This document shows, in pieces, positions 3,218 through 40,703 of a DNA stretch of 40,703 nucleotides (position 1 is the stretch's first letter; the number at the start of each line of letters is the position of its first letter). Origin of the DNA: Candidatus Saganbacteria bacterium (GTDB taxonomy: Bacteria > Margulisbacteria > WOR-1 > XYC2-FULL-46-14); NCBI GenBank assembly GCA_013202975.1, contig JABMQY010000090.1, forward strand, positions 1 to 40,703, given 5' to 3'. The position numbers were made by a program, and so were the translations under genes. The notes under the pieces were generated by a model. That model saw nothing but the letters and a program-made list of their open reading frames with translations. It searched no databases and was not told where the DNA came from.

Positions 3218-3290
3218 ACCTCCTTTTAAGATATTCAATTTGTTTATTCTATCATAATTATCCATTTGTGCAAGATTTATTTATCTAGTA

Positions 3291-5974: not shown

Positions 5975-5976
5975 TT

Positions 5977-8731: not shown

Positions 8732-8733
8732 AA

Positions 8734-9570
8734 TTATAATGCCTCTGGGATATTTTTTATTCTATCGTAGGAAAACACCGGTCCATCCTGGCAGCAATAA
8801 ACTCCGTTGATCTGACAGTGTCCGCATTTTCCAAGTCCGCACTTCATATGTCTTTCCAGGGAAACTAAAACCTGTCTATCAGGAATCTTTTTCTTAACCA
8901 ATTCTTTAATAACAAACTTATACATGATCGGAGGACCGCAAACAACGCCAAAAGTTCGCTCCGGATCAAGATCAATTCCAGGAATTAATTTTGTAATTAA
9001 ACCGACATTCCCCTTCCAGTCCGGATCGGCATTATCAACAGTACAGTTAAAATTAACATCAAGCCGCTTGCCCCACTGCTCAAGCTCGTTTCCGAAAAGA
9101 AGGTCTTTCGGAGATTTACAACCCAAAAGAATTGAAACTTTACCAAAATCCCTGCGATTATCAATTACAAAGTTAATCAGAGAGCGCAAAGGAACAATAC
9201 CCAGTCCTCCAGCAATAAAAAGAAGATCATTTCCCTCAAGAATACGAACAGGAAAACCCTTTCCAAACGGTCCGCGGATACCAACCTCGGCTCCGGCCTC
9301 CAGTTTATGCAAAGCGGCTGTTAACTTACCAACATTTCTTACCACCAGCTCAAAAGAACCAAGCTTTGTTGGGGAGGAAGAGATAGAGATAGGAGCTTCT
9401 CCGATACCTAAAAGGGACACTTCTACAAATTGTCCCGGTTCATGATCAAGACTCTCGCCGCCGGGCAAAGCAATCTCAAAATACTTTTCCATAGATGTAA
9501 GCATTTTAGCCTTCAAAATTTTGGCTTTTTTGATATCGTATTCAGAATCTTTAACCTTTAAACTTTTCAT
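8734..9570 (-). CDS. hydrogenase/sulfhydrogenase gamma subunit (FAD/NAD(P)-binding, HyhG-like)
   Basis: EPGQFVEVSLLGIGEAPISISSSP; GGLGIVPLRSLI; C-terminal CGLGKCGHCQINGVYCCQDGPVF. Confidence 0.92.
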   Translation of the reverse strand: MKSLKVKDSEYDIKKAKILKAKMLTSMEKYFEIALPGGESLDHEPGQFVEVSLLGIGEAPISISSSPTKLGSFELVVRNVGKLTAALHKLEAGAEVGIRGPFGKGFPVRILEGNDLLFIAGGLGIVPLRSLINFVIDNRRDFGKVSILLGCKSPKDLLFGNELEQWGKRLDVNFNCTVDNADPDWKGNVGLITKLIPGIDLDPERTFGVVCGPPIMYKFVIKELVKKKIPDRQVLVSLERHMKCGLGKCGHCQINGVYCCQDGPVFSYDRIKNIPEAL

Positions 9571-23184: not shown

Positions 23185-23213
23185 TTGACAAATATCCATG
23201 CAAAGAATATACT
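23185..23213 (+). promoter_or_regulatory. sigma70-type promoter of the CxxG precursor: TTGACA-N17-TATACT
   Basis: TTGACA 23185-23190, TATACT 23208-23213; the ORF track start at 23185 is the -35 box itself. Confidence 0.7.
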
Positions 23214-23244
23214 AAAAATTAATCTTATTATGGGAGGGTTAGAA

Positions 23245-23472
23245 GTGAAAAATAAGAAAACTAAGAAATGGCAAACTCCGGAATTGACTGGAATAATCGG
23301 AACAAAGACAGGCTCGGATTGCTCTTATGGAAACGGTGCTAACCCCGGTGATTGTTATACGGGAAGGCTTCCTCAATCGACCACTTGTCACGTAGGGGAA
23401 GACGCAGGTACCTCTTGTTTTTATGGAAACGATGCTCTAAACAGCTGTTCTACTGGAAACAACGTCGTATAA
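23245..23472 (+). CDS. candidate RiPP precursor with five CxxG repeats
   Basis: GTG start after GGGAGGG; MKNKKTKKWQTPELTGIIGTKTGSDCSYGNGANPGDCYTGRLPQSTTCHVGEDAGTSCFYGNDALNSCSTGNNVV. Confidence 0.8.
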   Translation: MKNKKTKKWQTPELTGIIGTKTGSDCSYGNGANPGDCYTGRLPQSTTCHVGEDAGTSCFYGNDALNSCSTGNNVV

Positions 23473-23513
23473 AATCAAAATTATAAACACCAGGCAAAGG
23501 GCTCTCGTATGAG

Positions 23514-24395
23514 ATGAGAAAGAATGGGTTTTATCCTTATTACTACTTTGGTTTTAATCTCCATTCTGATTTTTCAATTGATGATTTAAAAAAGAATGGA
23601 AAGGAACCGCCAGATGTATGGATTTGTGCTAAAGAAAATCACTCCAAGAATGTTGACAAAACCTTATTAGATCTTATTCTGGAAAACCCTCAAAAGTTCT
23701 TCACAATTGAAGGCCTAAACAATGTATCCTTTGACTCAATAATACATAAGCTGGATAATTCCTGGAAAATACGTTTGTTAAATTATGCCTTATCTCACCT
23801 CTCATTAAAAAGAGGTATCATTTCTATCCACGGCTCAGCAATTAATTATAATAACAGAGGAATTATTTTTGCCGGTTCAAGCGGGAGCGGAAAATCAACC
23901 ATCGCTGCAGCTTTTTGCAAAATGGGACACAGTTATCTGTCCGATGATCGCACATATATTAACCGCCAAAATGGCAAAAACTATATTGCCACCGATAGAG
24001 GCAATCTAAAACTAAAAAAAGATGCCATTACCCATCTAAACATTAGCGCAAAAGAAACCGGGCAAGAAAAAGATAAATTTGAATTCGACTTTAAATCCTA
24101 CCGATCAAAAAAGACCAGGCTGGTTTTGTCCCGCATTTATTGTTTGCAACCGGACACAAACTGCAACAACATTTCTCTTTTTAGGATGCCAAGAATAGAC
24201 AGCTTAAAAACATTGATAAAAAATGATGGCACTGGATCTATTATACCTAGAAATGATTATAGTAACAAAATTTTCAATCTTTTTTACGACTTATCGATAC
24301 AAGTTCCCGTCATAAGCATAAAATATCCTAAAAGAAGTTCTTCAATCACAGAGCTGACTAAAAAAATTGAATTGGATTGCAGAAATTCTGTATAA
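23514..24395 (+). CDS. HPr kinase-like (HprK-fold) protein of a RiPP cluster
   Basis: Walker A FAGSSGSGKSTIAAAF; YLSDDRTYI. Confidence 0.8.
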   Translation: MRKNGFYPYYYFGFNLHSDFSIDDLKKNGKEPPDVWICAKENHSKNVDKTLLDLILENPQKFFTIEGLNNVSFDSIIHKLDNSWKIRLLNYALSHLSLKRGIISIHGSAINYNNRGIIFAGSSGSGKSTIAAAFCKMGHSYLSDDRTYINRQNGKNYIATDRGNLKLKKDAITHLNISAKETGQEKDKFEFDFKSYRSKKTRLVLSRIYCLQPDTNCNNISLFRMPRIDSLKTLIKNDGTGSIIPRNDYSNKIFNLFYDLSIQVPVISIKYPKRSSSITELTKKIELDCRNSV

Positions 24396-24402
24396 TATAA
24401 TA

Positions 24403-24852
24403 ATGTTTAAATCGGGCAATAATAAAGCAGTAAGATTTCTCAGGCTTTCTGTCAAAAAAAAATACCTGTGTCTTGAAGCATTGTTTTGGTTGTTTTTGTC
24501 TCGTTTCATTATTGTTATTTTCCCCCTAAAGTATTACAATAGGTTATTATTGGGTAAAGATATAACAAGTTTAAAGGATGTTTTTTTTAAGGTACAAGAT
24601 CCTGTAGTTGATGATATAGCCAGGGCAGTCAAAGTTTGCAATGAACACGTACCATGGCAAAATAGATGTTTGGCTGCTGCTGTTAGCGCAAAAATTATGC
24701 TGGCTTTGAGAGGACACAATTCAGTGTTATATGTAGGGATTAATAAAAAAAATGATACTTTCCTAGCCTCACACAGCTGGTTGAGATGCGGTGAAAAATT
24801 CGTCATTGGTGGAAAGGGAAAAGACTATGTTCTTGTCTCAAAATTTAGATAG
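24403..24852 (+). CDS. lasso-peptide B2-like transglutaminase-fold leader peptidase
   Basis: NRCLAAAVSAKIMLALRGHNSVLYVGINKKN...ASHSWLRCGEKFVIGG, Cys/His pattern of B2 proteins; ATG at 24403. Confidence 0.82.
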   Translation: MFKSGNNKAVRFLRLSVKKKYLCLEALFWLFLSRFIIVIFPLKYYNRLLLGKDITSLKDVFFKVQDPVVDDIARAVKVCNEHVPWQNRCLAAAVSAKIMLALRGHNSVLYVGINKKNDTFLASHSWLRCGEKFVIGGKGKDYVLVSKFR

Positions 24853-24870
24853 GAAAAAAGGAAAATTAAA

Positions 24871-25143
24871 ATGAAAAATGATACGATACCAAATATAAAC
24901 TCAAAAATTACCTTTAGAGAAGAATATGATGGTTGGGGGATAGTTTTTAGTCCGGATACTGGAGAGGTTTTTGGCCTTAATCCAGTAAGTGCCCTTATAT
25001 GGAAAAATATAAACGGTAAAGATACTATAGACAATATTCACAATAAGATCAAAAAGTTTTTTTTCGACTTACCGGAAGATGCTTTAAACCAAACAAAAAA
25101 ATACCTTGAGCAACTGTCAAAGAAAAAACTGATTACGCTCTAA
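24871..25143 (+). CDS. PqqD family RRE protein
   Basis: GWGIVFSPDTGEVFGLNPVSALIWKNINGKDTIDNIHNKI. Confidence 0.82.
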   Translation: MKNDTIPNINSKITFREEYDGWGIVFSPDTGEVFGLNPVSALIWKNINGKDTIDNIHNKIKKFFFDLPEDALNQTKKYLEQLSKKKLITL

Positions 25144-25147
25144 GACA

Positions 25148-26257
25148 ATGACTTTTTATGATACCCCTAAAAGTGTTGATCTGGCTATAACAGGTAGTTG
25201 CAATCAAAGATGCAAGTATTGCAGTCATTTTAATAGCCCGGGCGAAACAAAAAATGACCTCCCCACCGATCAATGGCTAAAATTCTTTGAAGAACTAAAA
25301 AACTGCCTGGTAATGAATGTATTTCTTCAGGGGGGTGAGCCTTTTTATCGAGAAGAGCTTGATAAAATCCTGCTGGGAATTATCAAAAACAAAATGCGCT
25401 TTGCCATTCTATCTAACGGGACATTAATAACAGACAAATGGGCAAGGTTCCTGAAAGATACCGAAAGATGCGATTATGTCCAGGTTTCCATTGATTCCTC
25501 TATTCCTTCACATCATGATGCCGCAAGAGGCCAAGGTTCATTTACCAAGGCAATAAACGGGATAAAGCTGCTGCAAAAATATAAAATTCAGGTTCTATGT
25601 AGAGTAACCATCTCAAAATATAATGTTTATGATCTGGAAGATTTAACAGAATTTTTACTCAAAGATATCGGACTAAAGCACTTTGGGGTAAGTTCTGCTT
25701 CATATCTTGGCCTTTGCATGAAAAACCAAGAAGAAATAGGTTTATCCGCCAAAGAGCGTTCAATCGCAATGGAAAGTTTACTAAAATTAAACAAAAAATA
25801 TAATAACAGAATAACAGCAACGGCGGGTCCGCTTGCAGAAGCTCAAATATGGCAAAAAATGATTGAAGCAAGAAAACAAGGACTGGACAACCTTTCAAGA
25901 GGAGGGTATTTAACTTCATGCAATGCTAACATTTCCAAAATAGCAGTTAAGGCAGATGGAACTTTGGTCCCCTGTATCCAAATGGGGCATATCGAACTAG
26001 GGAAAATTAATCAAGATTCACTTTATGATATTTGGCACAATAGCACAAAGTTAAATTCGTTCAGAAATAGAGATAAGATACCGCTCTCTAACATTAATTT
26101 CTGTCAAGATTGTGATTTTATTAACTATTGCCAGGGCGGCTGCCCGGCAACTGCACAGACTTATTGCCAAAGCGATTTTGTTCCGGATCCAGACATCTGC
26201 CTAAAAAGATTCCTTAAAGCTGGTGGAAAATTTCCTGATCAGAGTTTGTATGAATAG
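25148..26257 (+). CDS. radical SAM/SPASM peptide maturase
   Basis: CNQRCKYC; LQGGEPF; SPASM-type CQDCDFINYCQGGCPA. Confidence 0.9.
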   Translation: MTFYDTPKSVDLAITGSCNQRCKYCSHFNSPGETKNDLPTDQWLKFFEELKNCLVMNVFLQGGEPFYREELDKILLGIIKNKMRFAILSNGTLITDKWARFLKDTERCDYVQVSIDSSIPSHHDAARGQGSFTKAINGIKLLQKYKIQVLCRVTISKYNVYDLEDLTEFLLKDIGLKHFGVSSASYLGLCMKNQEEIGLSAKERSIAMESLLKLNKKYNNRITATAGPLAEAQIWQKMIEARKQGLDNLSRGGYLTSCNANISKIAVKADGTLVPCIQMGHIELGKINQDSLYDIWHNSTKLNSFRNRDKIPLSNINFCQDCDFINYCQGGCPATAQTYCQSDFVPDPDICLKRFLKAGGKFPDQSLYE

Positions 26258-27350
26258 TCCTTTTCTAAATGAATGGATAGCAGGATTTGGCCAATCCAAC
26301 TATTTGCCAATTAGCACTGCCTGCAACAGTGATTGCATCTTTTGCACCAACAAATATAATATTTTCCCTTGCAGAAAAGGTTTATTCCGTGACATAGAAG
26401 ACATCAAGCTCCAGCTAAGCTTAATGAAACAGCATCAATCCTCAATAAACCTATCTTCTATTTTGCCTGGTCGTCTACCAGAGGGAGAGGCTTTTCTTCA
26501 CCCTGATTTCTTTGAAATATTGGAAATAATAAGAAAAAAATACCCTTCAAACACGCTAAACATTTACACAAACGGTTCAACGCTAAGCAAGAATTTCCTA
26601 AAAAAATTGAGTAACTATAACCCAATTAAAATAGTAGTTTCGCTGCATACAACTAATGCTCAAAAATTGGCTTTTCTTTGCAACCGGCCTCTCTCTTTTG
26701 TGAAAAAAATAATAGAATCTATCCCTTGGATTAACAATTTCAAAATAGAACTAGCAGGTGCCCTCCTGCCTTTTCCCAAACTACTTGGCTGGGAAGATAT
26801 TGAAGAAACAATACAATATCTGTTATCTAACAATGCCAAAGAATTAATACTTCACCATCCTGGATATACCAAAAAAACGCCCAAAGAAATTATTAACATA
26901 ATAGATTGTGACCTTGATGAACTTACCGAATTTACCTGCAAATTAAGAAAGAAGTGCCAAGCAAAAGTCCATATCTATCCAGACATGAAAGCATCTATCG
27001 AAATTCCAATAAAATTCAAAAATGCTCTCTTGCTAACATCAGAAGCTGCCTACTCAAGGCTAAAAGAAAATGGATCAAATTCACATTATTTTTATGCGGT
27101 TAAAAACAATTCCTTTGGCGGAAATGTTACTGTTGGCGGGCTGCTCATGGTTAATGACTTTATCGAGGCAGGAAAAAAAGCCCTGAAGAAATTCCCAAAA
27201 ACAGAGATAATACTTTTGCCAAGCGCCCCTTTTGATGCGTTCAGACGGGATTTGTTATATACCCCAGCACAAAAAATAGTAGATAAATTAAAGAAAAATA
27301 CAGCTATAATAAATAATAAGGGGGAAATTATTTCATTATGCCAACATTAA
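26250..27350 (+). CDS. radical SAM protein with DUF512-like C-terminal region
   Basis: CNSDCIFC; C-terminus YAVKNNSFGGNVTVGGLLMVNDFIEAGKKAL...ILLPSAPFDAFRRDLL resembles DUF512. Confidence 0.72.
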   Translation: MNSPFLNEWIAGFGQSNYLPISTACNSDCIFCTNKYNIFPCRKGLFRDIEDIKLQLSLMKQHQSSINLSSILPGRLPEGEAFLHPDFFEILEIIRKKYPSNTLNIYTNGSTLSKNFLKKLSNYNPIKIVVSLHTTNAQKLAFLCNRPLSFVKKIIESIPWINNFKIELAGALLPFPKLLGWEDIEETIQYLLSNNAKELILHHPGYTKKTPKEIINIIDCDLDELTEFTCKLRKKCQAKVHIYPDMKASIEIPIKFKNALLLTSEAAYSRLKENGSNSHYFYAVKNNSFGGNVTVGGLLMVNDFIEAGKKALKKFPKTEIILLPSAPFDAFRRDLLYTPAQKIVDKLKKNTAIINNKGEIISLCQH

Positions 27351-28294
27351 TGTTAACCACAAAATGCCCTAATTCCTGTGATTGGTGTTTTGCCAAGTCA
27401 ATAATGCAGGATTATCAGAGCAAAAGTATTAGCGAAATAAAATGGGAAGATTTTTTGAGTGTAGTAGAATTTTTCAAACAATCAGGTAAAAAGAACATAA
27501 TCTTGTTAGGAGGGGAACCAACCCTGCACTCAAAATTTATGGACATTCTGACATATCTAAATAAAGAAAATTTTACTGTCTCGGTAGCAACCAACGGAAT
27601 AACAGATCGCTCATTAATTGACAAAGTTGCTGCCTCTAATTTTCAATCTCTTCGTTTTGGATTGAACAGCACAAGCTATTTCCACTATGATCAGGCAACA
27701 CAAAAAAAGGTTGATTATTTCTTATCTACAATAAGAATGCCCATCTTACTTTCTTATACAATATCCGAAAAAGATATAAACGACCCAAAACCCGAACCCA
27801 TACTGGATCGCGCATATCTAATAATGAGATATTCTTTGTCATCGCACATTCAATTTCAAATAGCTGTCCCTTCTTCTTCAAATAAATGTTTCATCCCATT
27901 CTCCCGTTATCGGGAAGTGTTCTCCCTGCTTAATAAATGGAACACTATCTTAAAAAGAAACAATATCACTTCGGGACTAGATTGCCATTCTTTCCCCAAA
28001 TGCGCCCTGCCTCCGGACGATAAACTCAAAAACCCACTTTATTTTAAATGCGCTAATTTCATGATAGATATCGGCCCGAATCTTGATGTCTGGCCCTGTT
28101 TTCCCCTCTCAGATCATAAGGTAAATTTAGCTGATTTTAAAAACCTTGCTCAAATACAAGAACATTTTAAAACAAAGCTATCTAACAGCTTAGTTTACGA
28201 TAAATCCTGCAGCAAATGCGGAGAAAAAAGAAACTGCGACGGAGGTTGTTTTGGCTTCTCAAAAACAAGAAATGAACTCGCAAAACAAAAATAA
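27338..28294 (+). CDS. radical SAM protein (SPASM-like C-terminus)
   Basis: CPNSCDWC; LLGGEPTLH; C-terminal CSKCGEKRNCDGGCFG. Confidence 0.85.
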   Translation: MPTLMLTTKCPNSCDWCFAKSIMQDYQSKSISEIKWEDFLSVVEFFKQSGKKNIILLGGEPTLHSKFMDILTYLNKENFTVSVATNGITDRSLIDKVAASNFQSLRFGLNSTSYFHYDQATQKKVDYFLSTIRMPILLSYTISEKDINDPKPEPILDRAYLIMRYSLSSHIQFQIAVPSSSNKCFIPFSRYREVFSLLNKWNTILKRNNITSGLDCHSFPKCALPPDDKLKNPLYFKCANFMIDIGPNLDVWPCFPLSDHKVNLADFKNLAQIQEHFKTKLSNSLVYDKSCSKCGEKRNCDGGCFGFSKTRNELAKQK

Positions 28295-29366
28295 ATTTCC
28301 ACTAAAAGGGATCTATTTCTATTTAACTGATGCCTGTAATCTAAAATGTCAGCACTGTTGGATTTCGCCTAAATATAATAAAGCCAAAAGCAACAAAGAA
28401 TTAAATTTTGATCTGTTTTGTAAAATAATAGAAGAGGCAAAGCCCCTTGGATTACGTTTTGTAAGACTGACCGGAGGAGAACCTCTATTACACTCACAAA
28501 TTGAAGAAATAATTAAACACGTGGCTAAAAACAACCTGGTACTAGACATTGAGTCCAATGGCACCTTAATCACTCCCAAATTCGCTAATCTGCTTGGCAG
28601 CATCAAAAAGAAAAACATCTCAATAAGTTTAGAAAGTACTGACCCCAAAAAACACTACTCTTTTAGAGGGGTATCAGGAAGTTTTAAGAAAACGATTACC
28701 GGAATCTTAAATCTAAAAAATGCCGGTGTGAGCCCAGAGATCATAACCTGCTTATCTAAAAACAATAAGAAACAAATCAAAAAACTAATTTATTTTGCGG
28801 AAAACTTAAAACTAAGGTCGTTAAGCTTCAAAATAATTAATCCTCTTGGAAGGGCCACAAAAATATTTTCACAAAACAATAACTTATCAATTGCAGAACT
28901 AATTCAATTGGGACAATGGGTTGAAGAACAACTGATTCCAAAATCAAAAATACCTGTTGCCTTTGGCTATCCCCCAGCTTTTAGCAAGATGAGTTCTTTG
29001 TGCAATCCACGAGAAATATCCTGCAATAGTTGCGGAATAAAAGGAATCATGGGGGTCCTATCAAGCGGAGAATACGCTCTCTGTGGAATCGGCCAATCAA
29101 TAAAAGAGTTGTGTTTTGGGAACGCAAAAACAAATACGCTTAGTAAGATTTGGCTCAATAGTAAGATAATAAACGAAATAAAAATAGGGCTTCCAAAAAA
29201 ACTTAAGGGAATTTGCGCAAAATGCGCAATGAAAGAGCTTTGCAAAGGGGCATGTCTTGCTCAAAATTATTATTTTAAAGAAGATTTGTGGGCCCCATTT
29301 TGGTTCTGCCAACAAGCCTATGACTTAGGCCTATTTCCAAAAAGCAGAATAATACCCGCCTCTTGA
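28272..29366 (+). CDS. radical SAM/SPASM peptide maturase
   Basis: CNLKCQHC; LTGGEPLL; C-terminal CAKCAMKELCKGACLAQNYY. Confidence 0.9.
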   Translation: MNSQNKNKFPLKGIYFYLTDACNLKCQHCWISPKYNKAKSNKELNFDLFCKIIEEAKPLGLRFVRLTGGEPLLHSQIEEIIKHVAKNNLVLDIESNGTLITPKFANLLGSIKKKNISISLESTDPKKHYSFRGVSGSFKKTITGILNLKNAGVSPEIITCLSKNNKKQIKKLIYFAENLKLRSLSFKIINPLGRATKIFSQNNNLSIAELIQLGQWVEEQLIPKSKIPVAFGYPPAFSKMSSLCNPREISCNSCGIKGIMGVLSSGEYALCGIGQSIKELCFGNAKTNTLSKIWLNSKIINEIKIGLPKKLKGICAKCAMKELCKGACLAQNYYFKEDLWAPFWFCQQAYDLGLFPKSRIIPAS

Positions 29367-29768: not shown

Positions 29769-29939
29769 TTAAGTCTCAGCTATAACACTGCAAGGAACAC
29801 AGCCGGGATCCAGTTCCCGACAAGTTGCATTATTAGAGGTTTCACCTGCTGGCTCAAACTTGCAGGTTACCAGAACAGACTCTTCGGATTTACCCCTTGT
29901 TAAAATATTCAACATCGGCTTTTTCCATTCTTTTTTCAT
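29769..29939 (-). CDS. candidate RiPP precursor, WxxPxL-leader family (56 aa, not in ORF track)
   Basis: MKKEWKKPMLNILTRGKSEESVLVTCKFEPAGETSNNATCRELDPGCVPCSVIAET; strong G-rich RBS; leader shared with three others. Confidence 0.85.
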   Translation of the reverse strand: MKKEWKKPMLNILTRGKSEESVLVTCKFEPAGETSNNATCRELDPGCVPCSVIAET

Positions 29940-30122: not shown

Positions 30123-32072
30123 ATGGAATACACCCAATCTAAAAAATACGAAAAAATACCACGCTTACCATTTGAGGCAAAGGTAGATTTAACCTATCGC
30201 TGTAACAACAACTGCCGGCACTGCTGGCTCAGAATCCCGGCTGATTCGGAAGAAAAAAAGAGAGAACTTTCTTTTGAAAAAATAAAAGATATTATTTGCC
30301 AAGCTAGAAAACTCGGTTGTCGCAGATGGTCTATCTCTGGCGGAGAACCGATGCTTAGGCCAGACTTTGAAGAAATTTTTGATTATATTACCAGCCATTC
30401 TATGTCCTATTCCCTTAACAGCAACGGAACATTAATTACCCCAATGATTGCAAAATTGATGAAGAAAAGAGGGACTAAGATGATCGCAGTTTATGGAGCA
30501 ACAGCAGAAGTGCACGATCATATCACTCGCAACCCTGGTTCATTTGACGCTCTCATGCGCGGATTTGCTTATTTAAAAGAAGCAGGAGCCGGATTTATAG
30601 TTCAACTTATTCCCATGAAGGATAACTACCACCAGTTTGATCAGATGGTCAAGTTGGCTAAATCTTTAAGTAAACATTATAGAGTAGGAGCGCCATGGCT
30701 TTATTTGTCTGCTTATAGGGACGCAAAAGCAAATGAAGAGATTAAACAGCAGAGGCTTTCCTCCAAAGAAGTGATCGGGCTAGATCAGCCAAGCATCCCT
30801 GCCGAAGATAAATTGGCTGCTGATCATGGATGCGGTTGTTTGGAAAAAGGCGACGATCGTCTTTTTTCTGCTTGTTTAAAGGCAAGAAGGGATTTTAGCG
30901 TGGATCCCTACGGTCAAATGACCTTTTGCGGTTTTATCAAAGACCCTGCCCTGCTTTATGATTTAAGAAAAGGAACAGTTGAAGATTGCTGGGAAAACTT
31001 TATCCCCTCTCTGGCAGATAAAATTAGGGGGGGGCAGGAATATTTGGAAAATTGCGGGTCCTGTGACTTAAAATCTGATTGCCGCTGGTGTCCTGTTTAT
31101 GGATATTTAGAATACGGCCGGTTTTCGGCAAAGGTAGAACATCTTTGTGAAGTAGCAAAAGAAAAAATGAAATACAAGGAAAATTGGATAAAAAACCATC
31201 GCACCTTTTACCAAATTGCCGGCATCACCATTCAAATAGACTCGGATATTCCAATTAAAGAAGAAACCATTCACTCCAAATTAAATCCTTTTAAAGTTGA
31301 TGGGCCTGGGAAGGACACAATTTATCTTAATCACCATTTTTCCTTGCCTGATTTGGCCGGAAAGGATTTAGGAAAGAGAATTTATTCTAAAACTCCGTGG
31401 TCGATCTACAAAAAAGATGATTCCTGGATATATCTAGGTATTTCAGCAACAAAAGGAGAAAAAAGACTACATCGAGTAGCAATTTTCAACAAAGATCATA
31501 CTCGCGCCAGTATCTATCATGCAGATGATAATATGATTAAGAAAGGAAACCTTACTTCTCTCACATTGTTTCCTACTGATCAAATCCTCGTTGGACGCAT
31601 TCTGGCTGACCGCGATGGTTGCTATATGCACTCTTGTGGTATTGTTCTTGATGGTAAGGGATATTTGTTTGTTGGTCATTCCGAAGCAGGAAAATCAACC
31701 ACCAGCTTAATGATGAAAAAGCAAGGCGGTAAAATTCTTTGTGATGATCGGATAATTATCCGTAAAAAGCCCGAAGGTTTTCGTATTTATGGTACATGGA
31801 GCCATGGGGATGTCCCTGACATTTCTCCTGATTCAGCCCCCCTGCACGCGATCCTCTTTTTGAAGCAAAGTGAGGAAAATGTATTAATTCCGATGTATGA
31901 TAAGTTGGAAGTGGTAAGGCGGCTCTTGGCCTGCCTGATTAAACCTTTTGCCTGTGCTGACTGGTGGGAAAAAGAACTGACTCTAATAGAGAAAATCGCG
32001 AAAGAAATCCCCTGCCACCGCATGTTGTTTGATAAGAGCGGAGAGATCGTAGAACAGATTAGGGTTATGTAG
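30123..32072 (+). CDS. radical SAM/SPASM-HPr kinase-like fusion protein, copy 1
   Basis: CNNNCRHC; SGGEPML; SPASM-type CGSCDLKSDCRWC; C-terminal P-loop LFVGHSEAGKSTT and LCDDRIIIR...GTWSHGD. Confidence 0.88.
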   Translation: MEYTQSKKYEKIPRLPFEAKVDLTYRCNNNCRHCWLRIPADSEEKKRELSFEKIKDIICQARKLGCRRWSISGGEPMLRPDFEEIFDYITSHSMSYSLNSNGTLITPMIAKLMKKRGTKMIAVYGATAEVHDHITRNPGSFDALMRGFAYLKEAGAGFIVQLIPMKDNYHQFDQMVKLAKSLSKHYRVGAPWLYLSAYRDAKANEEIKQQRLSSKEVIGLDQPSIPAEDKLAADHGCGCLEKGDDRLFSACLKARRDFSVDPYGQMTFCGFIKDPALLYDLRKGTVEDCWENFIPSLADKIRGGQEYLENCGSCDLKSDCRWCPVYGYLEYGRFSAKVEHLCEVAKEKMKYKENWIKNHRTFYQIAGITIQIDSDIPIKEETIHSKLNPFKVDGPGKDTIYLNHHFSLPDLAGKDLGKRIYSKTPWSIYKKDDSWIYLGISATKGEKRLHRVAIFNKDHTRASIYHADDNMIKKGNLTSLTLFPTDQILVGRILADRDGCYMHSCGIVLDGKGYLFVGHSEAGKSTTSLMMKKQGGKILCDDRIIIRKKPEGFRIYGTWSHGDVPDISPDSAPLHAILFLKQSEENVLIPMYDKLEVVRRLLACLIKPFACADWWEKELTLIEKIAKEIPCHRMLFDKSGEIVEQIRVM

Positions 32073-32108: not shown

Positions 32109-32282
32109 ATTAGAAAGACATGGAAGAAGCCGAAATTAATTGTCTTATTTCGTTCAAACAAAGAAGAACAGGTGTTAGCAAATTGCAAAAATTTTGGAGA
32201 AGCCCCTGGGCCTAATTTGTCCTGGTGGGACTGTCAAGGAACAGGTTGTGGCACCGTCTGTGCGGATATTGGCGTTTCTTGA
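32109..32282 (+). CDS. candidate RiPP precursor, WxxPxL-leader family, apparent ATT start (57 aa, not in ORF track)
   Basis: AGGAG-N6-ATT; (M)RKTWKKPKLIVLFRSNKEEQVLANCKNFGEAPGPNLSWWDCQGTGCGTVCADIGVS; no ATG/GTG/TTG in frame back to the stop at 32070. Confidence 0.78.
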   Translation: MRKTWKKPKLIVLFRSNKEEQVLANCKNFGEAPGPNLSWWDCQGTGCGTVCADIGVS

Positions 32283-32288
32283 TATGTT

Positions 32289-32453
32289 ATGAAAAAAACA
32301 TGGAAACGACCGCAATTAAAAATATTGACGCGAAGTAAGCCTGAAGAGAGCGTCCTAAGTTACTGTAAAATGCAATTTGGACAAGATGGTGGTCCCGGTT
32401 GGGGTCTTGGGTGCAGATTTAGTCCTGACTGCGTTATTCTTTCTGTGTCTTAA
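32289..32453 (+). CDS. candidate RiPP precursor, WxxPxL-leader family (54 aa, not in ORF track)
   Basis: MKKTWKRPQLKILTRSKPEESVLSYCKMQFGQDGGPGWGLGCRFSPDCVILSVS. Confidence 0.85.
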   Translation: MKKTWKRPQLKILTRSKPEESVLSYCKMQFGQDGGPGWGLGCRFSPDCVILSVS

Positions 32454-32460
32454 TTACATT

Positions 32461-33633
32461 ATGAAAAAATACATTTCTAAGACGGACATCTCAGGCTATA
32501 ATCTCTTTAAAAAGTCTAAGCCTCTGATTTACAAACTAGACATCGAACTCACTGAACGCTGCAACAATAATTGTATCCACTGCAGTATAAATCTACCGGA
32601 AAACGATCTTTCTGCCAAACAAAAAGAACTATCTACTGATGAGTTGAAGAGAATCATTAAAGAAGCTGCTGATTTAGGGGCTATGACGATCCGTTTTACC
32701 GGCGGAGAACCTCTCTTGAGAGAAGATTTTAAAGAGCTATATCTTTTCACCCGTAAACTGGGAATCAAAGTAATGCTCTTTACCAACGCCCGATTGATTA
32801 CTCCCGAACTGGCTGAATTATTAGCAAAGTATCCACCAGGAGAAAAAATAGAAGTTACGGTTTACGGTATGCATAAGGAGTCCTATGAGGCAGTTACTTG
32901 CGCAAAAGGATCGTTTGAGGAATTTTGGCGTGGAGTCAATCTATTGCTTAATAAGAAGATTCCTTTTATTGTAAAGGCTGCTTTGCTCCCTCCAAATAAA
33001 CATGAAATGGAAGAATTTGAAGCCTGGGCAGCTACCATTCCCTGGATGGACAAAAACCCTTCTTACTCGATGTTTTTTGGCCTCCGATGTAGAAGGGATG
33101 ATGCGGTAAAAAACCGGCTGATACAAAAAAACCGTCTTTCTCCTGAGGACGGATTGAAAATATTAACCAGGGACAAAGATAAATACAATAAGGGCATGAA
33201 AGAGTTTTGCTCCAAGTTTACGCGGCCGCCGGGCACAAAGCTATTCGCCTGCGGTGCGGGGAAAGGGGGAGGATGCGTAGATGCATACGGTAAATTACAG
33301 CTCTGCCTTACGCTTAGACACCAGGATACAATACATGATATTAAAAACGGAACACTCAAGGATGCCATTCAAATTTTTTTCCCTAAAGTACAGGCAACAA
33401 AAGCGAAAAATCCTGACTATCTTAAACGCTGTGCAAAATGTTTTTTAAAAGGTCTTTGTGAGCAGTGTCCGGCCAAATCTTGGATAGAAAGCGGCGACCT
33501 GGACACACCGGTAGAATATCTTTGTGAGGTTACCCACGCACAGGCGGAATATTTAGGGTTGATTGAGAAGGGGGAGAAGGCGTGGGAGGTAGAGGATTGG
33601 GTGGAAAGAATTAATAATTTTACTGCTAACTGA
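32461..33633 (+). CDS. radical SAM/SPASM peptide maturase (track start 32377 is false)
   Basis: CNNNCIHC; FTGGEPLL; SPASM-type CAKCFLKGLCEQCPA; ATG at 32461 directly after precursor stop. Confidence 0.9.
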   Translation: MKKYISKTDISGYNLFKKSKPLIYKLDIELTERCNNNCIHCSINLPENDLSAKQKELSTDELKRIIKEAADLGAMTIRFTGGEPLLREDFKELYLFTRKLGIKVMLFTNARLITPELAELLAKYPPGEKIEVTVYGMHKESYEAVTCAKGSFEEFWRGVNLLLNKKIPFIVKAALLPPNKHEMEEFEAWAATIPWMDKNPSYSMFFGLRCRRDDAVKNRLIQKNRLSPEDGLKILTRDKDKYNKGMKEFCSKFTRPPGTKLFACGAGKGGGCVDAYGKLQLCLTLRHQDTIHDIKNGTLKDAIQIFFPKVQATKAKNPDYLKRCAKCFLKGLCEQCPAKSWIESGDLDTPVEYLCEVTHAQAEYLGLIEKGEKAWEVEDWVERINNFTAN

Positions 33634-33680
33634 GATTTTGGTATAATCATATATGATTAGATTATAAAGGAGTGCTTTTT

Positions 33681-33986
33681 ATGAATTTAGCTTTGGATTC
33701 TATTTGTATCCCTTCAGATAAAATAGTAGCAAGAGAAATCGAAGGCGAACTTATCATTGTCCCACTGGTTTCCGGCATTGGTGATATGGAAGACGAACTC
33801 TTTACTTTAAACGAAACCGGAAGGGAAATATGGAAAAGACTGGACGGAAAAAAAAACCTGAATAACATTACGGATGAATTAACAAATGAATTTAAAGCCC
33901 CAAGAGAAGAGATAGAAAAAGATGTTTTGGGATTGACCGAAGAATTAATTAAAAGGCAAATGATAGCTGTTGCTTCTGCCGCTTAA
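33681..33986 (+). CDS. PqqD family RRE protein
   Basis: AAAGGAG RBS; GDMEDELFTLNETGREIWKRLDGKKNLNNITDEL. Confidence 0.85.
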   Translation: MNLALDSICIPSDKIVAREIEGELIIVPLVSGIGDMEDELFTLNETGREIWKRLDGKKNLNNITDELTNEFKAPREEIEKDVLGLTEELIKRQMIAVASAA

Positions 33987-33991
33987 TTTCT

Positions 33992-34477
33992 GTGAGTATA
34001 GATCAAGAAAAAAAGAATATCTCTCTTTATAGTCCTCATTTAATCGAACTGATGCAGGCAGTTTTTGATAAAGGCCTACCCTTTCGCTTTCAAGCAAAAG
34101 GCGGGAGCATGTCTCCTTTTATTAAAGATAGTGATATTCTTACGCTGGCCCGCTTTTCCGGCGACTATTCAATTGGCGATGTAGCGGCTTTTGTCCGTCC
34201 TGAAGGAAAAAAACTGGTTGTACATAGAATAGTCGCAAAAAAAAACAACGCTTATTTAATAAAAGGCGACAATGGTTTTGGGCAAGACAGCCTTATCCCC
34301 AAAGAAAACATTTTAGGCCGGGTAATTAAAGTGGATAGAGGAACAAAAAATATATCATTTGGCCTTGGCCCAGAAAAACATCTGATTGCTTTCTTAAGCC
34401 GAACAAACCTCCTGCCTGTTTTGTTTTTTTTACCTAGAATGTCTTTATCTCTTTTAAGGAAAATTAGAAATTTCTAG
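33992..34477 (+). CDS. S24/S26 signal peptidase-like protein
   Basis: GGSMSPFIKDSDILTLAR; LVVHRIVAKKNNAYLIKGDNG; GTG start. Confidence 0.8.
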   Translation: MSIDQEKKNISLYSPHLIELMQAVFDKGLPFRFQAKGGSMSPFIKDSDILTLARFSGDYSIGDVAAFVRPEGKKLVVHRIVAKKNNAYLIKGDNGFGQDSLIPKENILGRVIKVDRGTKNISFGLGPEKHLIAFLSRTNLLPVLFFLPRMSLSLLRKIRNF

Positions 34478-34618: not shown

Positions 34619-36157
34619 ATGAACACTTTTTTAAAAGATGCATTTAAATATAATGATGATGGCCTAGATAAAATAATTCCCCCGTCGGAGACAATAAAAA
34701 AGGCAACCCTTGCCCTGGGTAATGCCAAAATGCCAATCTCATTCGAAATAGAAAAGATAGACTATATAAACAAGCCCAAAATACCATCTTTTGTTTGCAA
34801 AATCCAAAGAGCAACCGGGCAGGCATACGGATTGCAGCAGAAATACTCTTGGGGAAAAGGAGTCACCCAAACAGCAGCTCGGGCCAGCGCAATAATGGAA
34901 TTAATAGAAAGAGCAAGCTGTAGCAGTTTCTTGAAAAATGAGAACAATTTCAAAACCGGCAGTTATTCTTATATAAAGAAATGGGGGAACCCTTTTAAGG
35001 ATTCAATCCTGGCTTGTTCAGAAAAATTTAGGCGGGATCTTTTTCTCTGCAATCTGCTTAAAAAAGCATGTCTTAAATGGACTAACTCCTTTTCTCTTAC
35101 AAAAAACAAAAATATTCTCTTTCCTCTTGATTGGTTTGCTGCCTTTCAAGGAACTAACGGCTATGCCGCCGGAAATTCAATAGAAGAAGCAACCCTGCAG
35201 GGATTATGCGAAGCGGTGGAGCGCTATGCCATCTCCACTATAATGAAAAAGAAGTATAAAACCCCAGCAATCAATATTGATTCCATTAATAATCGTACTG
35301 CCAAAGAAATAATTACAAAGCTTAAGCGGGCTGGAATAAAATTATATATAAAGGATTTCTCACTTGACCTTGAAATCCCCACCATTGCGGTAATTATAAA
35401 CGATCCAAAATCAAAAGATCATAAATACTATTACACTGCAGGCACTTCTATAAATAGGAACCTGGCACTAGTGCGAGCCCTTAATGAGGTCGCACAGATT
35501 AGAAACCAAATAGTATATGGGGCAAAGAAGCTTGGAATAACGGTTGCTGCTGCTTGGTGTTTTCCGGATTTTAAGGACTTTGCAAAGAATAAATTTCTTA
35601 TTGAAAATAGCAAAAAAATAGATTTTTCTGACTTGCCAACTTATTCTAATAGAAACATTAAAAAAGAGATCGAAGTAGTTGTAAGCAAATTAAAGGATAA
35701 AGGCCTTGAGGTAATAGTTACAGACACAACACATCATATTCTAAAAATACCAACGGTGATTGTGACTATTCCAGGAACTTTTACTGTTTCTTCTAACTCC
35801 ATCAACCCGTATTTAGTTTTAATAGAACACAATGAAAAAATGCAAAACCACCAAAATAATATTAAAATTTTTAAAAGATACTTCCAAATGAATCCGGAAG
35901 AAAAAAAGAAAGGAAACTTACTGTATTCCTTTGGAAAACAGCATGAGAAAACTGGAAAGTATAAGCAGGCAATCAAAATATTTAATGAGACAACTTCTTT
36001 TTGCAATAAAGACAATCCAGGATGGATCAATATGCAGATGATATACTGTGCATTAATAAGGTGCTATTCAAATCTATCAAAACCAGAGGAAGTTTTGAAA
36101 ATTTACAGAAAACTAAAAAAACTGCAACAAAACACACCCCAACAAGTAGTAGAATAA
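34619..36157 (+). CDS. YcaO-domain protein with C-terminal TPR-like region
   Basis: TQTAARASAIMELIERAS; GTNGYAAGNSIEEATLQGLCEAVERYAIS; C-terminal GKQHEKTGKYKQAIKIFNE TPR-like. Confidence 0.88.
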   Translation: MNTFLKDAFKYNDDGLDKIIPPSETIKKATLALGNAKMPISFEIEKIDYINKPKIPSFVCKIQRATGQAYGLQQKYSWGKGVTQTAARASAIMELIERASCSSFLKNENNFKTGSYSYIKKWGNPFKDSILACSEKFRRDLFLCNLLKKACLKWTNSFSLTKNKNILFPLDWFAAFQGTNGYAAGNSIEEATLQGLCEAVERYAISTIMKKKYKTPAINIDSINNRTAKEIITKLKRAGIKLYIKDFSLDLEIPTIAVIINDPKSKDHKYYYTAGTSINRNLALVRALNEVAQIRNQIVYGAKKLGITVAAAWCFPDFKDFAKNKFLIENSKKIDFSDLPTYSNRNIKKEIEVVVSKLKDKGLEVIVTDTTHHILKIPTVIVTIPGTFTVSSNSINPYLVLIEHNEKMQNHQNNIKIFKRYFQMNPEEKKKGNLLYSFGKQHEKTGKYKQAIKIFNETTSFCNKDNPGWINMQMIYCALIRCYSNLSKPEEVLKIYRKLKKLQQNTPQQVVE

Positions 36158-36161
36158 AATT

Positions 36162-38147
36162 ATGAGCATGTACGAATATATAGATTACAACAAAGAAAAG
36201 AATCTTCCATCGATTCCCCAATATGGAAAAATTGACCTTACTTACCGTTGCAATAACAATTGCCGCCATTGCTGGTTAAGAATTGCGCCTGATGCCAAAG
36301 AAAAACAGAACGAACTTTCATTTAATGAAATTATAAGGGTTGTAACCGACGCCAGAAAAATGGGATGTCGCAATTGGGCAATCTCTGGAGGAGAGCCCTT
36401 ACTAAGACAAGACTTTGCCGAAATATTTGAACTTATTACTAGTAAATCAAAGTCTTATTCTCTTAACACAAATGGCACATTAATTACTTCCCAAATTGCC
36501 CGATTGATAAAAAATGAAAAAGGAAACGTAATTGTTTCTATCTATGGAGCAACAGCAGAAGTTCATGATAATATCACGCGCAATAAAGGCTCATTTGAAG
36601 CAGCAATGAGAGGACTTTCCTGTCTAAAAGAAAAAGCTGTTAACTTTGTGGTTCAGATTGTCCCCCTGAGAGACAACTATCACCAGCTTAAAGAGATGAT
36701 TGTTATTGCCAGATCCTTTAACCCTCATTATAAACTCAATACTTCATGGATGTATCTTTCTGCCAGCAGGGATGAGCAGATTAATCAGCAAATTTTGAAC
36801 CAGAGATTAGAAAAAAACGATTTAATCAAACATTTTAAATCCAATTTAACTTTTCACGAAGAAACATCCTGCAATTGTAATCAAGTAAAAAATGATGATC
36901 GGCTTTATGCTTCCTGTATTAAAGGATTAAGCGGCTTTCATATCGATCCCTACGGTTATATGGCTCTTTGCCCGTTTGTTAAAGATAATGCTCTTCGATA
37001 TGATCTTAGAAAGGGAACTTTTGAAGAATGTTGGGATAGCTTTATCCCTTCTTTAGCAGACAAGATCCGGGGCGGCCAGGAGTACCTGGACAATTGCGGT
37101 TCCTGCGATCTGCTTAGTGATTGCCGCTGGTGCCCGGCCTTTAGTTTTTTGGAACATGGCAGACACTCGGCAAAAGTTGATCATTTGTGTGATTTAGCAC
37201 GAGAAAAAAAGCTCTTTAATAAAAATTGGATAAAAAAACATCGCCGTTATTTTCGTGTTGCTGATATTACTATCCAAATAGAAATGGATATTCCTTTTTC
37301 GGAAGATTTTTTCAAACCTAAATTCAAGATTTTTGAGGTGGACGGACCAGGAGAAGATACGGTTAGTATCAGCCACCATTTTTCTTTGCCCGATCTTGAA
37401 GGATTCGATTTGGGACAAAAGATTTATCAAAAGCCTCCCTGGGCTATATATAAGAAAAACAGCTCCTGGATATATCTGTGTATTTCCCCAAATCCAGAAA
37501 ACAGTATTCAGGGAGTTGTTGTTTTTAACCGTGACCATTCAAAGGCCAGGATCTACCATGATAGCGCAAAAAAACCTCAGGTTTTAGAAGGAAACTGGCC
37601 CTCGATAACATTTTTACCTTCGGATCAAATTATTATTGCCCGTTTGCTGGCCGATCGGCAAGGATGTTATTTCCATTCAAGCGGATTAATCCTTAATGGC
37701 AAGGGATTTCTTTTTGCCGGCTATTCTGGAGCGGGCAAATCGACCATAAGCCTTATGCTACAAAACCATGCAGAAATTTTGTGTGATGACAGAATTATTG
37801 TCAAAAAGCAAAAAAAAGGATTTCATATCTTCGGCACCTGGAGCCACGGGGACGTGCCGGATATATCGGCAAAGTCGATCCCATTACACGCAATCATGTT
37901 TTTGGAACAAGCACAAGATAATCGATTGGTTCAAATCACCGACCGAAAAGAAATTAGAAAAAGATTGCTTGCCTTTTTAATAAAACCGCTGGTGACAAAA
38001 GATTGGTGGGAAAAGATGCTAACCCTGATTGAAAAAATTAGTTTTGAGGTACCCTGTTATATTATGAAATTTGATAAGAGCGGAGCAATTGTCAAAGAAT
38101 TAAAGTCTTTAGCAAAAGATACGAAGAAGGCGGGAGATCAGATATAA
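36162..38147 (+). CDS. radical SAM/SPASM-HPr kinase-like fusion protein, copy 2
   Basis: CNNNCRHC; SGGEPLL; CGSCDLLSDCRWC; FAGYSGAGKSTI; LCDDRIIVK; colinear with 30123-32072. Confidence 0.88.
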   Translation: MSMYEYIDYNKEKNLPSIPQYGKIDLTYRCNNNCRHCWLRIAPDAKEKQNELSFNEIIRVVTDARKMGCRNWAISGGEPLLRQDFAEIFELITSKSKSYSLNTNGTLITSQIARLIKNEKGNVIVSIYGATAEVHDNITRNKGSFEAAMRGLSCLKEKAVNFVVQIVPLRDNYHQLKEMIVIARSFNPHYKLNTSWMYLSASRDEQINQQILNQRLEKNDLIKHFKSNLTFHEETSCNCNQVKNDDRLYASCIKGLSGFHIDPYGYMALCPFVKDNALRYDLRKGTFEECWDSFIPSLADKIRGGQEYLDNCGSCDLLSDCRWCPAFSFLEHGRHSAKVDHLCDLAREKKLFNKNWIKKHRRYFRVADITIQIEMDIPFSEDFFKPKFKIFEVDGPGEDTVSISHHFSLPDLEGFDLGQKIYQKPPWAIYKKNSSWIYLCISPNPENSIQGVVVFNRDHSKARIYHDSAKKPQVLEGNWPSITFLPSDQIIIARLLADRQGCYFHSSGLILNGKGFLFAGYSGAGKSTISLMLQNHAEILCDDRIIVKKQKKGFHIFGTWSHGDVPDISAKSIPLHAIMFLEQAQDNRLVQITDRKEIRKRLLAFLIKPLVTKDWWEKMLTLIEKISFEVPCYIMKFDKSGAIVKELKSLAKDTKKAGDQI

Positions 38148-39310
38148 CAAGTTATTCCGAAAAACTTGAATACAGTAAGTTTTCTCTGCAGCAGAAGAAA
38201 AAAAATCTTTTTTTAACCAGGCTGGATATGCAGCTTACTGAGCGCTGCAATAATAATTGCATACACTGCTGTATTAACCAACCAGCAGATGATTTATTAC
38301 TAAAGGAAAAAGAGCTTTCTACAAAAGAAATAAAGAATATTCTACAAGAGGCCGCAACTTTAGGATATTTGACAGTTAGATTTACCGGCGGGGAACCATT
38401 GTTGCGGGATGATTTTTCGGAATTGTATGTTTTTGCCAGAAAGCTCGGGATTAAGGTAATGCTTTTTACCAATGCCACACTGATTACCCCTCAATTAATT
38501 GAACTATTTGCCCGGATCCCGCCACTTGAAAAAATTGAGGTTTCTGTATATGGAATGCACAAAAAGTCGTATGAAGCAGTTTCAAGGGTTTCTGGAAGTT
38601 ATGAGCCTGCCTGGCGCGGAATAAACTTACTACTTGAGAATAAGATTCCTTTTATAGTAAAGGGCTCACTTCTCCCACCCAACAAAAAAGAAATTGATGA
38701 ATTTAGAGCATGGGCAAAAAAAATTCCCTGGATGATTGAAGATCCGCTTTGCTCTATGTTTTTTGACCTTCGCTGCAGAAGGGATTCGAAAGAAAAGAAC
38801 CAGATGATTAAAAAGCTTAGGCCTTCTGCAAAGGAAGGATTAACAGAGCTAACATGCGAAAAAGAAGGATACAAAAAAAGGATGAAAGAATTTTGTTCAA
38901 AATTTATTGGTCCAAAAGGAGACACCCTCTTTGTCTGTGGCGTTGGTGTTGGCGGAGGTTCGGTCGACCCATATGGATATTATTTCCCCTGTTTGGTACT
39001 TATGTCTCCTGAAACGGGATACTATCTCAAAGAAGGCTCTCTTAAAGATGCCCTAGAATGTTTCTCTCCAAAAATACGAAAAATCAAGGCAACCAATCCA
39101 GCCTACTTATCCCGCTGCGCCCGCTGTTTTTTAAAAGGGCTATGCGATCAATGTCCTGCAAAATCTTATATGGAAAATGGAACACTAGATACTCCGGTAG
39201 AGTATCTTTGTGAAATTACTCACCTTCAAGCCAGCTATCTGGGGTTGATCAATAAGGGAGAAAAGACCTGGGAAGTTAAGGATTGGCAGGAGAGAATCAG
39301 CAAATTTTAA
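38144..39310 (+). CDS. radical SAM/SPASM peptide maturase; start uncertain (first ATG at 38228 truncates strand beta-1)
   Basis: CNNNCIHC; FTGGEPLL; CARCFLKGLCDQCPA; open frame upstream of 38228 reads DITSYSEKLEYSKFSLQQKKKNLFLTRLDMQLTERC, paralogous to the 32461 N-terminus. Confidence 0.75.
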   Translation: MTSYSEKLEYSKFSLQQKKKNLFLTRLDMQLTERCNNNCIHCCINQPADDLLLKEKELSTKEIKNILQEAATLGYLTVRFTGGEPLLRDDFSELYVFARKLGIKVMLFTNATLITPQLIELFARIPPLEKIEVSVYGMHKKSYEAVSRVSGSYEPAWRGINLLLENKIPFIVKGSLLPPNKKEIDEFRAWAKKIPWMIEDPLCSMFFDLRCRRDSKEKNQMIKKLRPSAKEGLTELTCEKEGYKKRMKEFCSKFIGPKGDTLFVCGVGVGGGSVDPYGYYFPCLVLMSPETGYYLKEGSLKDALECFSPKIRKIKATNPAYLSRCARCFLKGLCDQCPAKSYMENGTLDTPVEYLCEITHLQASYLGLINKGEKTWEVKDWQERISKF

Positions 39311-39498
39311 GTTGTTGAATAAGTTTCACACCAAACGTTACAACCAGTTGATGGAACGATACAAGTTGTGTCCCAAGAGTTGGAAGCCATAAGCGGCCCA
39401 CTGTTCCATTTACAGATAACCAAAACATTTTCACCAATCTCACTTCTTATCAAAACTACAAGTTTTGGTTTTTCCCATTTATCTTTTTTATTTTTCAT
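39307..39498 (-). CDS. candidate RiPP precursor, WxxPxL-leader family (63 aa)
   Basis: MKNKKDKWEKPKLVVLIRSEIGENVLVICKWNSGPLMASNSWDTTCIVPSTGCNVWCETYSTT; start ATG 39498, not 39534. Confidence 0.85.
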   Translation of the reverse strand: MKNKKDKWEKPKLVVLIRSEIGENVLVICKWNSGPLMASNSWDTTCIVPSTGCNVWCETYSTT

Positions 39499-39551: not shown

Positions 39552-39580
39552 ATTACTCAACTACCAGTTTGGAGGTGTTT

Positions 39581-39892
39581 ATGAAACAAAAGATAAGTCC
39601 TGATATTGTTTGCTCGATCTCAGAAGATGTAGTTGCCCGCAACATTGAGGGTGAGATGCTAATTGTCCCATTAACAAAAGGAATTGGGGATATGGAAGAT
39701 GCTCTCTATACTCTAAATAAAACCGGCATGGCTATCTGGGCATGCATTGATGGAAAAAAGAAAATTAAAGATATTGTTGCTGAACTATCAGAAAAGTTTG
39801 AAGCATCCTCATCTGAGCTCGAACAGGATGTCTTTGGATTTGCTGACGAATTACTCAAAAGAGGGATCCTGATTGAGTCCTCAAAACACTGA
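39581..39892 (+). CDS. PqqD family RRE protein
   Basis: GDMEDALYTLNKTGMAIWACIDGKKKIKDIVAELSEKF, paralog of 33681-33986. Confidence 0.85.
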   Translation: MKQKISPDIVCSISEDVVARNIEGEMLIVPLTKGIGDMEDALYTLNKTGMAIWACIDGKKKIKDIVAELSEKFEASSSELEQDVFGFADELLKRGILIESSKH

Positions 39893-39993
39893 CACCCCTT
39901 CATTTATTGAGAACATGGCTGAGCAAAAACATGCTCCTACCCTCTTTTCTGTTTATCCCAAGAATCATCGGTCTCAAATAAAGAGGATTAATA

Positions 39994-40703
39994 ATGGATA
40001 ACTCTTTTACATCATCAAAACCGCTGCCTGAATTTGATCTTTGGGAAAAGATGAAACAAAATAAAAAAAGAAAGGTTATCTCTTTTTCTCTCGAAATTAC
40101 CGCCCGCTGTAATAACGATTGCACCCACTGTTATATTAATCTTCCAGCGGGAGATAAAAAAGCTAAGAATAAAGAGCTCTCATTAAAACAAATATCCGAT
40201 ATAGCAGATCAAGCGGTGTCTCTGGGTGCGCTCTGGTGTTTACTCTCCGGCGGAGAACCGCTTTTGCGTGAGGACTTCATTGATATCTATTTGATTCTTA
40301 AAAAGAAAGGGCTCTTAGTGTCTGTCTTTACTAATGCCTGCTTAATAACTCAAAAACACACTGACTTATTTAAAAAGTATCCTCCAAGGGATGTTGAAGT
40401 AACGGTTTATGGCATTACCAAAGAAACCTACGAAAAAATCAGCCGCAAACCTGGGTCATTCGATGCTTTTACGCGTGGGCTAAGCATTCTTAGGGAAACC
40501 GGCGTCCGGATCCGTTTTAAAACCATGGCGCTCCGGTCTAATCATCATGAACATTCCAAAATCGCAGAATTTTGCAGAGAAAGAACCAAAGATTATTTCC
40601 GCTTTGATCCCCAGCTCCACCTGCGTTTTGATAGAGACCTCAAACGCAATGAGTTAATCAAATCAGAACGTCTGACTCCGGAAGAGGTTGTTGCGGTTGA
40701 AAA
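39994..40703 (+). CDS. radical SAM peptide maturase, partial (runs off window end)
   Basis: MDNSFTSSKPLPEFDLWEKMKQNKKRKVISFSLEITARCNNDCTHCYINLP; LSGGEPLLREDF. Confidence 0.85.
   Translation, partial: MDNSFTSSKPLPEFDLWEKMKQNKKRKVISFSLEITARCNNDCTHCYINLPAGDKKAKNKELSLKQISDIADQAVSLGALWCLLSGGEPLLREDFIDIYLILKKKGLLVSVFTNACLITQKHTDLFKKYPPRDVEVTVYGITKETYEKISRKPGSFDAFTRGLSILRETGVRIRFKTMALRSNHHEHSKIAEFCRERTKDYFRFDPQLHLRFDRDLKRNELIKSERLTPEEVVAVE

Follow-up and report, generated by a model that had tools for sequence, protein, structure and literature searches.

A Radical SAM/SPASM–HprK-Like Kinase Fusion From Candidatus Saganbacteria Suggests a New Family of Modified Peptides

Genes of the Cluster

The window analyzed here is an entire contig of 40,703 bp from a genome of Candidatus Saganbacteria. 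At positions 30123..32072 of the plus strand it encodes a protein of 649 amino acids (fusion 1), with an ATG start and a frame open throughout, in which a radical SAM/SPASM region (residues ~15–345) is connected by a linker helix (~339–359) to a predicted kinase domain of the HprK/PEPCK fold (~358–649). The second copy, fusion 2 (36162..38147, plus strand, 661 amino acids), is a paralog of fusion 1 with 56–57% identity and the same motifs. Further genes of the cluster, all on the plus strand, encode a separate radical SAM protein, rSAM2 (32449..33633), found in nearly every related cluster; its paralog (38228..39310), which adjoins fusion 2 and whose true start possibly lies upstream of the first ATG; two PqqD-like proteins (33672..33986, a probable RiPP recognition element, and 39569..39892); a Peptidase S24/archaeal-type signal peptidase I-like protein (33992..34477), which is the probable leader peptidase; a YcaO protein with C-terminal repeats (34619..36157), a predicted extra backbone-modifying enzyme found in few relatives; and rSAM3 (39982..40703), cut off at the contig end.

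The core set in relatives consists of the kinase, rSAM2, PqqD, the peptidase, rSAM3, and the precursor, often accompanied by an ABC transporter and NTP_transf_5; the latter is absent from the window and present on other contigs of the host genome. In the surveyed loci, the kinase or the fusion protein is invariably found within RiPP clusters. No match to the lasso macrolactam synthetase (C) or the B2 protease was found among the genes at 29.4–40.7 kb, the only B2-like protein in the window belonging to a neighboring SCM cassette, and the fusion cluster yielded no lyase domain.

The closest family of the YcaO protein is that of McrA-glycine thioamidation (172 bits, under the cut-off); this hints at an additional modification, a thioamide or an azole.

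Precursor Peptides

The cluster contains at least four precursor genes. Two of them are on the minus strand, at 29769..29939 (MKKEWKKPMLNILTRGKSEESVLVTCK, with the core ending in ...CVPCSVIAET) and about 39307..39498 (core end ...CNVWCETYSTT), and two on the plus strand, at 32109..32282 (...CGTVCADIGVS) and 32289..32453 (...CRFSPDCVILSVS). The 32109..32282 gene has no ATG, GTG, or TTG start, and its apparent start codon is ATT, located behind AGGAG. An earlier reading of this DNA made from the sequence only had named the two plus-strand genes; both are precursors, whereas their number was underestimated.

The leaders follow the consensus WxxPxLxxLxRxxxEExVLxxCK, and the cores vary strongly. 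Pfam has no family for the four precursors tested, and the NCBIfam search yielded only a sub-threshold match to paeninodin-type precursors, limited to the first 12 residues; judging by the precursors tested, the family is unnamed in both collections.

The last residue is Ser or Thr in 63 out of 65 precursors, compared to 21 out of 233 long ORFs (9%) from the same loci, and the two exceptions are degenerate paralogs from one genome. Other positions among the last 12 are Ser or Thr in at most 28% of these 65 precursors, while Cys is found at position −7 in 52 of them (80%), so that the usual end is C-x5-[S/T].

Among 74 genomes of Margulisbacteria, the leader was observed only in the three genomes with intact fusions. 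The clusters are fairly common in Omnitrophota, where 17 out of 384 sampled genomes carry precursors, and 15 of these 17 match the kinase-domain profile; the other two (G124 and G314) have precursors with no kinase match, and these genomes may be incomplete. Precursors with the same leader in the absence of any HprK, wanted as a control, were not found in the surveyed genomes, including these 384. Two Omnitrophota genomes, G144 and G440 (loci L096, L097, L104, L105, and L107), have, respectively, seven and 11 precursor genes scattered over several contigs and mostly located away from the kinase gene, which suggests one enzyme set serving many peptides.

Structure and Conservation of the Fusion Protein

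Residues 23–178 of fusion 1 match the Pfam family Radical_SAM (1.2e-21), with the motifs CNNNCRHC at 27–34 and GGEP at 73–76, and the CxxxCxxC cluster motif is retained in all 21 fusions with this region covered. The Pfam SPASM model gives no match on fusion 1; all 22 fusions compared have the SPASM-type cysteines C251, C269, C311, C314, C320, C323, and C342, and the spacing of the auxiliary-cluster cysteines is C-x12-G-x4-C ... C-x2-C-x5-C-x2-C ... C. The structure model of the whole protein has pLDDT 81.8. The solved structures nearest to its rSAM half include SuiB, PqqE, SkfB, and a sactipeptide thioether enzyme, with PEPCK and HprK/P ranked lower in the structure-match list of the whole protein than rSAM maturases.

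Profile matches of the kinase half are remote. It matches Pfam Hpr_kinase_C weakly (1e-4, 22 bits, the cut-off being 33.3) and, taken alone, yields under-cut-off NCBIfam matches to ScmC (2e-9), HprK_rel_B (7e-8), and HPr(Ser) kinase (1e-4); the best of them, ScmC, scores 37.2 bits against the cut-off of 125, and the model of bona fide HPr kinase/phosphorylase, 21 bits against 240. Modeled with AlphaFold2 (pLDDT 92.7), this half superposes along its whole length on solved PEPCK structures (Z 12.3, 235 residues aligned; VIA-align), and its residues 142–292, on HprK/P structures (Z 10.9, rmsd 2.9, 120 residues aligned; VIA-align); as a whole, it superposes on PEPCK no worse than on HprK/P. The fold is common to HprK and PEPCK, and, according to the model, the C-terminal half of fusion 1 has this P-loop kinase fold. 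The check by structure prediction and domain HMMs proposed in the sequence-only reading agrees with its main claim of a radical SAM-SPASM enzyme and an HprK-like half in one polypeptide: the 649-aa ORF, the Radical_SAM match, the SPASM-type cysteines, and the kinase-half model all conform to it.

In the sequence alignment, H503, K524, D541, and D542 correspond to the His, Walker Lys, and Asp-Asp of HprK/P from L. casei. H503, K524, D541, and R543 are invariant in 31 out of 31 kinase homologs (22 fused and nine lone, with the frame-broken fusion L029 placed among the lone ones), and position 542 is Asp in 29 homologs and Glu in two. Degeneration of the kinase across homologs, named in advance as an argument against the claim, is ruled out by this set of residues. 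With key residues nearly invariant, both the rSAM half and the kinase half look catalytic.

The fusion architecture, for which a survey had also been proposed, recurs in several uncultured groups of bacteria, being found in about 23 genomes from Margulisbacteria/WOR-1, Omnitrophota, KSB1, Acidobacteria, and others. Among about 85,000 species genomes scanned, fusions were found under the labels WOR-1, Saganbacteria, Omnitrophota, KSB1, Acidobacteria, and Bacillota; the search with the kinase half produced fusions in Margulisbacteria, and several more are from Omnitrophota genomes. Therefore, the fusion is no assembly artifact, which the second copy in the window also shows. A chance ORF is excluded by this copy, by the intact fusions of other genomes, and by the low dN, as close relatives have dN of 0.17–0.24 in both halves of the fusion, with dS saturated. 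The frame is broken in two of these approximately 23 genomes (L029 and L042/L026). In L042/L026, a Saganbacteria MAG, the fusion at 7146–9160 is split within the kinase half and may be a pseudogene or an assembly error.

Genomes With a Lone Kinase

Six genomes (L035, L037, L039, L043, L044, and L045) have a lone kinase and, in the available assembly, no ortholog of the radical SAM half (rSAM1): their best rSAM1 matches are paralogs with 29–37% identity, compared to 60–62% for true orthologs. Since the lone kinase of L043 is preceded by a decayed SPASM tail and that of L035 retains the linker, at least these two must have lost an rSAM half. All six retain precursors ending with Ser or Thr, along with other cluster genes, and thus the kinase is apparently independent of rSAM1.

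The precursors of the lone-kinase genomes have two core cysteines in eight out of eight cases. Three or more core cysteines in some precursor are found in 19 out of 20 fusion genomes and in none of the six genomes without rSAM1 (Fisher test, p = 3e-5 per genome; here L029, a fusion with a frame break, was counted as fused). The extra, third Cys is typically at position −10 or −11, yielding the end C-x2/3-C-x5-[S/T]; seven precursors from the fusion genomes, including the 32289 precursor, have fewer than three core cysteines. When corrected for the tree, with L029 again counted as fused, the test retains two well-supported independent fused/lone contrasts, which are concordant in nearly all pairings and too few for significance. 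These observations suggest that the rSAM half acts on the third core Cys near the C-terminus, probably as a thioether. Another product on the C-terminal tail, e.g., epimerization or a C–C cross-link, is a rather unlikely alternative, as the number of cysteines follows the presence of rSAM1, although the structures nearest to the rSAM half include, besides thioether enzymes, PqqE and SuiB, the latter forming a Lys–Trp C–C bond.

Comparison With Known Systems

In paeninodin, pseudomycoidin, and their relatives, HprK-like kinases phosphorylate the C-terminal Ser, the His-Lys-Asp-Asp motif being essential; the terminal Ser is extremely conserved in precursors from kinase-bearing lasso clusters, and PsmN, a nucleotidyltransferase-type neighbor, is required to add hexose to the phosphorylated Ser (PMC9266682). 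The His-Lys-Asp-Asp motif of these kinases is present in the kinase half, and PadeK, ThcoK, SyanK, and PsmK share with it the HprK fold class and substrates ending with Ser, which bears out the previously proposed link to lasso-peptide kinases. Common with the paeninodin-type systems are also the PqqD-type leader recognition, the [W/Y]xxPxL motif, and the NTP_transf_5 and ABC neighbors, here observed in relatives. Unlike the lasso kinases, the kinase considered here is fused to a radical SAM/SPASM enzyme, its cluster has no lasso macrolactam synthetase, the substrates are Cys-rich, and phosphorylation is predicted.

The LPP system (lppAKBSDN; Nat Commun 2026) is similar in having an HprK-like kinase, a discrete RRE, and an archaeal-type signal peptidase, as well as the NTP transferase and ABC transporter seen in fusion relatives. 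The window contains SpI, PqqD, and the kinase of the LPP gene set, while the NTP transferase and ABC transporter are absent from it and found in several relatives. In contrast to the fusion clusters, LPP has no radical SAM enzyme in its core set, its kinase gene is separate, and the leader motif YxxPxVLxHQxIxFETxxS (PMC13381572) was not found in the consensus WxxPxLxxLxRxxxEExVLxxCK. The LPP kinase phosphorylates core Ser3 rather than the C-terminal Ser and does not accept Thr (PMC13381572). Hence, the phosphosite here cannot be derived from homology alone.

The SCM cassette (ScmA–F) also combines an HprK-like protein (ScmC) with a PqqD-like protein (ScmD) and radical SAM enzymes (ScmE and ScmF). 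In this system, ScmC is a separate protein and the precursor is different; the kinase half of the fusion, although related to ScmC, scores far under its cut-off (37 vs. 125 bits), which rules out its identity as the ScmC of the adjacent SCM cassette. The latter, a SynChlorMet-like cassette, is located at 23185–29366 and encodes a Cys-rich putative peptide, an HprK-like protein in the ScmC position, a B2-like transglutaminase, a ScmD-like PqqD protein, ScmE (502 bits), ScmF (432 bits), and two further rSAM-like proteins. Thus, the window has two adjacent HprK-containing rSAM RiPP systems, and a like adjacency is observed in L038 and L040.

SuiB, PqqE, SkfB, and CteB resemble the rSAM half in the rSAM and SPASM fold and motifs and in the RiPP context; to our knowledge, none of them carries a C-terminal HprK-like kinase domain. 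The fusion cluster falls outside the definitions of the lasso and SCM systems and, by its leader motif, of LPP, and points to an undescribed modified-peptide family. By analogy, the fusion would combine the action of an HprK peptide kinase of the lasso type with that of a SPASM maturase, HprK-tailored, rSAM-modified RiPPs as such being a known kind. We know of no reported single protein combining a radical SAM RiPP maturase and a peptide kinase, and our literature search, which covered few subscription journals, found no paper combining rSAM maturase and HprK-like kinase domains, and none naming the SynChlorMet system.

Proposed Function of the Fusion

Taking the evidence together, we lean toward a bifunctional RiPP tailoring enzyme, in which the kinase would phosphorylate the terminal Ser or Thr and the rSAM half would act on the same C-terminal tail. 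The architecture, its conservation, the integrity of the motifs, the gene neighborhood, the terminal Ser/Thr rule, and the joint absence of the rSAM half and the third Cys are shown by sequence or by computation, whereas the phosphosite, the thioether chemistry, the order of steps, and the product are inferred. The terminal Ser or Thr is proposed as the kinase target because related lasso-peptide kinases target the C-terminal Ser. The earlier suggestion that both halves share a peptide substrate holds at the level of a shared precursor family.

The pathway may proceed as follows. The PqqD-like protein would bind the WxxPxL leader and present the precursor; the HprK-like half, using ATP, would phosphorylate the C-terminal Ser or Thr at its side chain, in the manner of PadeK, ThcoK, and PsmK in paeninodin-type lasso peptides; the radical SAM/SPASM half would most likely form a thioether via the extra Cys of the C-x2/3-C-x5-[S/T] end; rSAM2 and rSAM3 could introduce further cross-links; and the signal-peptidase-like protein would cut off the leader. 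In relatives that have them, NTP_transf_5 may decorate the phosphate, and the ABC transporter may export the product. The fusion would tether two enzymes with neighboring sites on one short tail. More tentatively, and with less confidence than in the enzyme itself, we suggest a class of RiPPs that are both phosphorylated and cross-linked by radical chemistry, a single polypeptide placing the two marks on one and the same C-terminal tail, perhaps a thioether at C-x2/3-C and a phosphate, possibly glycosylated later, on the terminal Ser or Thr.

It is improbable that two independent activities were fused for co-expression, with the kinase modifying a non-terminal Ser or Thr and the terminal one retained for some other enzyme, e.g., a protease or transporter. 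Such a phosphosite has a precedent in LppK, which modifies core Ser3 (PMC13381572), and the HprK-like gene of the SCM cassette adjoins a putative peptide ending with NNVV; still, Ser or Thr is conserved nowhere else near the C-terminus, and the terminal one persists among clusters differing in other enzymes.

Coupled chemistry, with the phosphoryl group leaving to yield a dehydro-residue or a cross-link formed by the radical half or by elimination, as suggested in the sequence-only reading, seems highly unlikely. The physical fusion and the kinase-plus-lyase logic of lanthipeptide synthetases speak for it. However, no lyase domain accompanies the fusion, the only near-universal Ser or Thr occupies the final position, in most cases six residues past the last Cys, and six genomes retain the kinase together with its presumed target, the Ser/Thr-ending precursors, without rSAM1; hence, neither a leaving-group mechanism nor an obligatory coupling of the two activities is favored. 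Least probable of all is a regulatory HPr or protein kinase or a nucleotide-sensing, non-catalytic domain, as, despite the remote similarity to HPr(Ser) kinase, a PTS-HPr gene has no match in the 91%-complete host genome, the His-Lys-Asp-Asp residues are retained, and the domain always occurs in RiPP clusters.

If the bifunctional model is right, the fusion brings together two chemistries known until now from different pathways and provides a natural test of peptide channeling between active sites by fusion. The predicted phosphosite is precise, and the lineages that have the kinase and lack the rSAM half are ready-made controls.

Two other loci were noted. In the host genome, three adjacent minus-strand ORFs (L166, contig G000:C46, 9170–11851) lie beside a polysaccharide-like locus; one of them matches NTP_transf_5, and the other two, judged by eye, are signal-peptidase-like and HprK-related kinase-like, the trio recalling exopolysaccharide-linked LPP clusters. 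In a WOR-1 relative (L025), three AAA_14/DUF4143 ATPase genes (2783–3910, 4901–6241, and 7911–9116) are located among RiPP genes.
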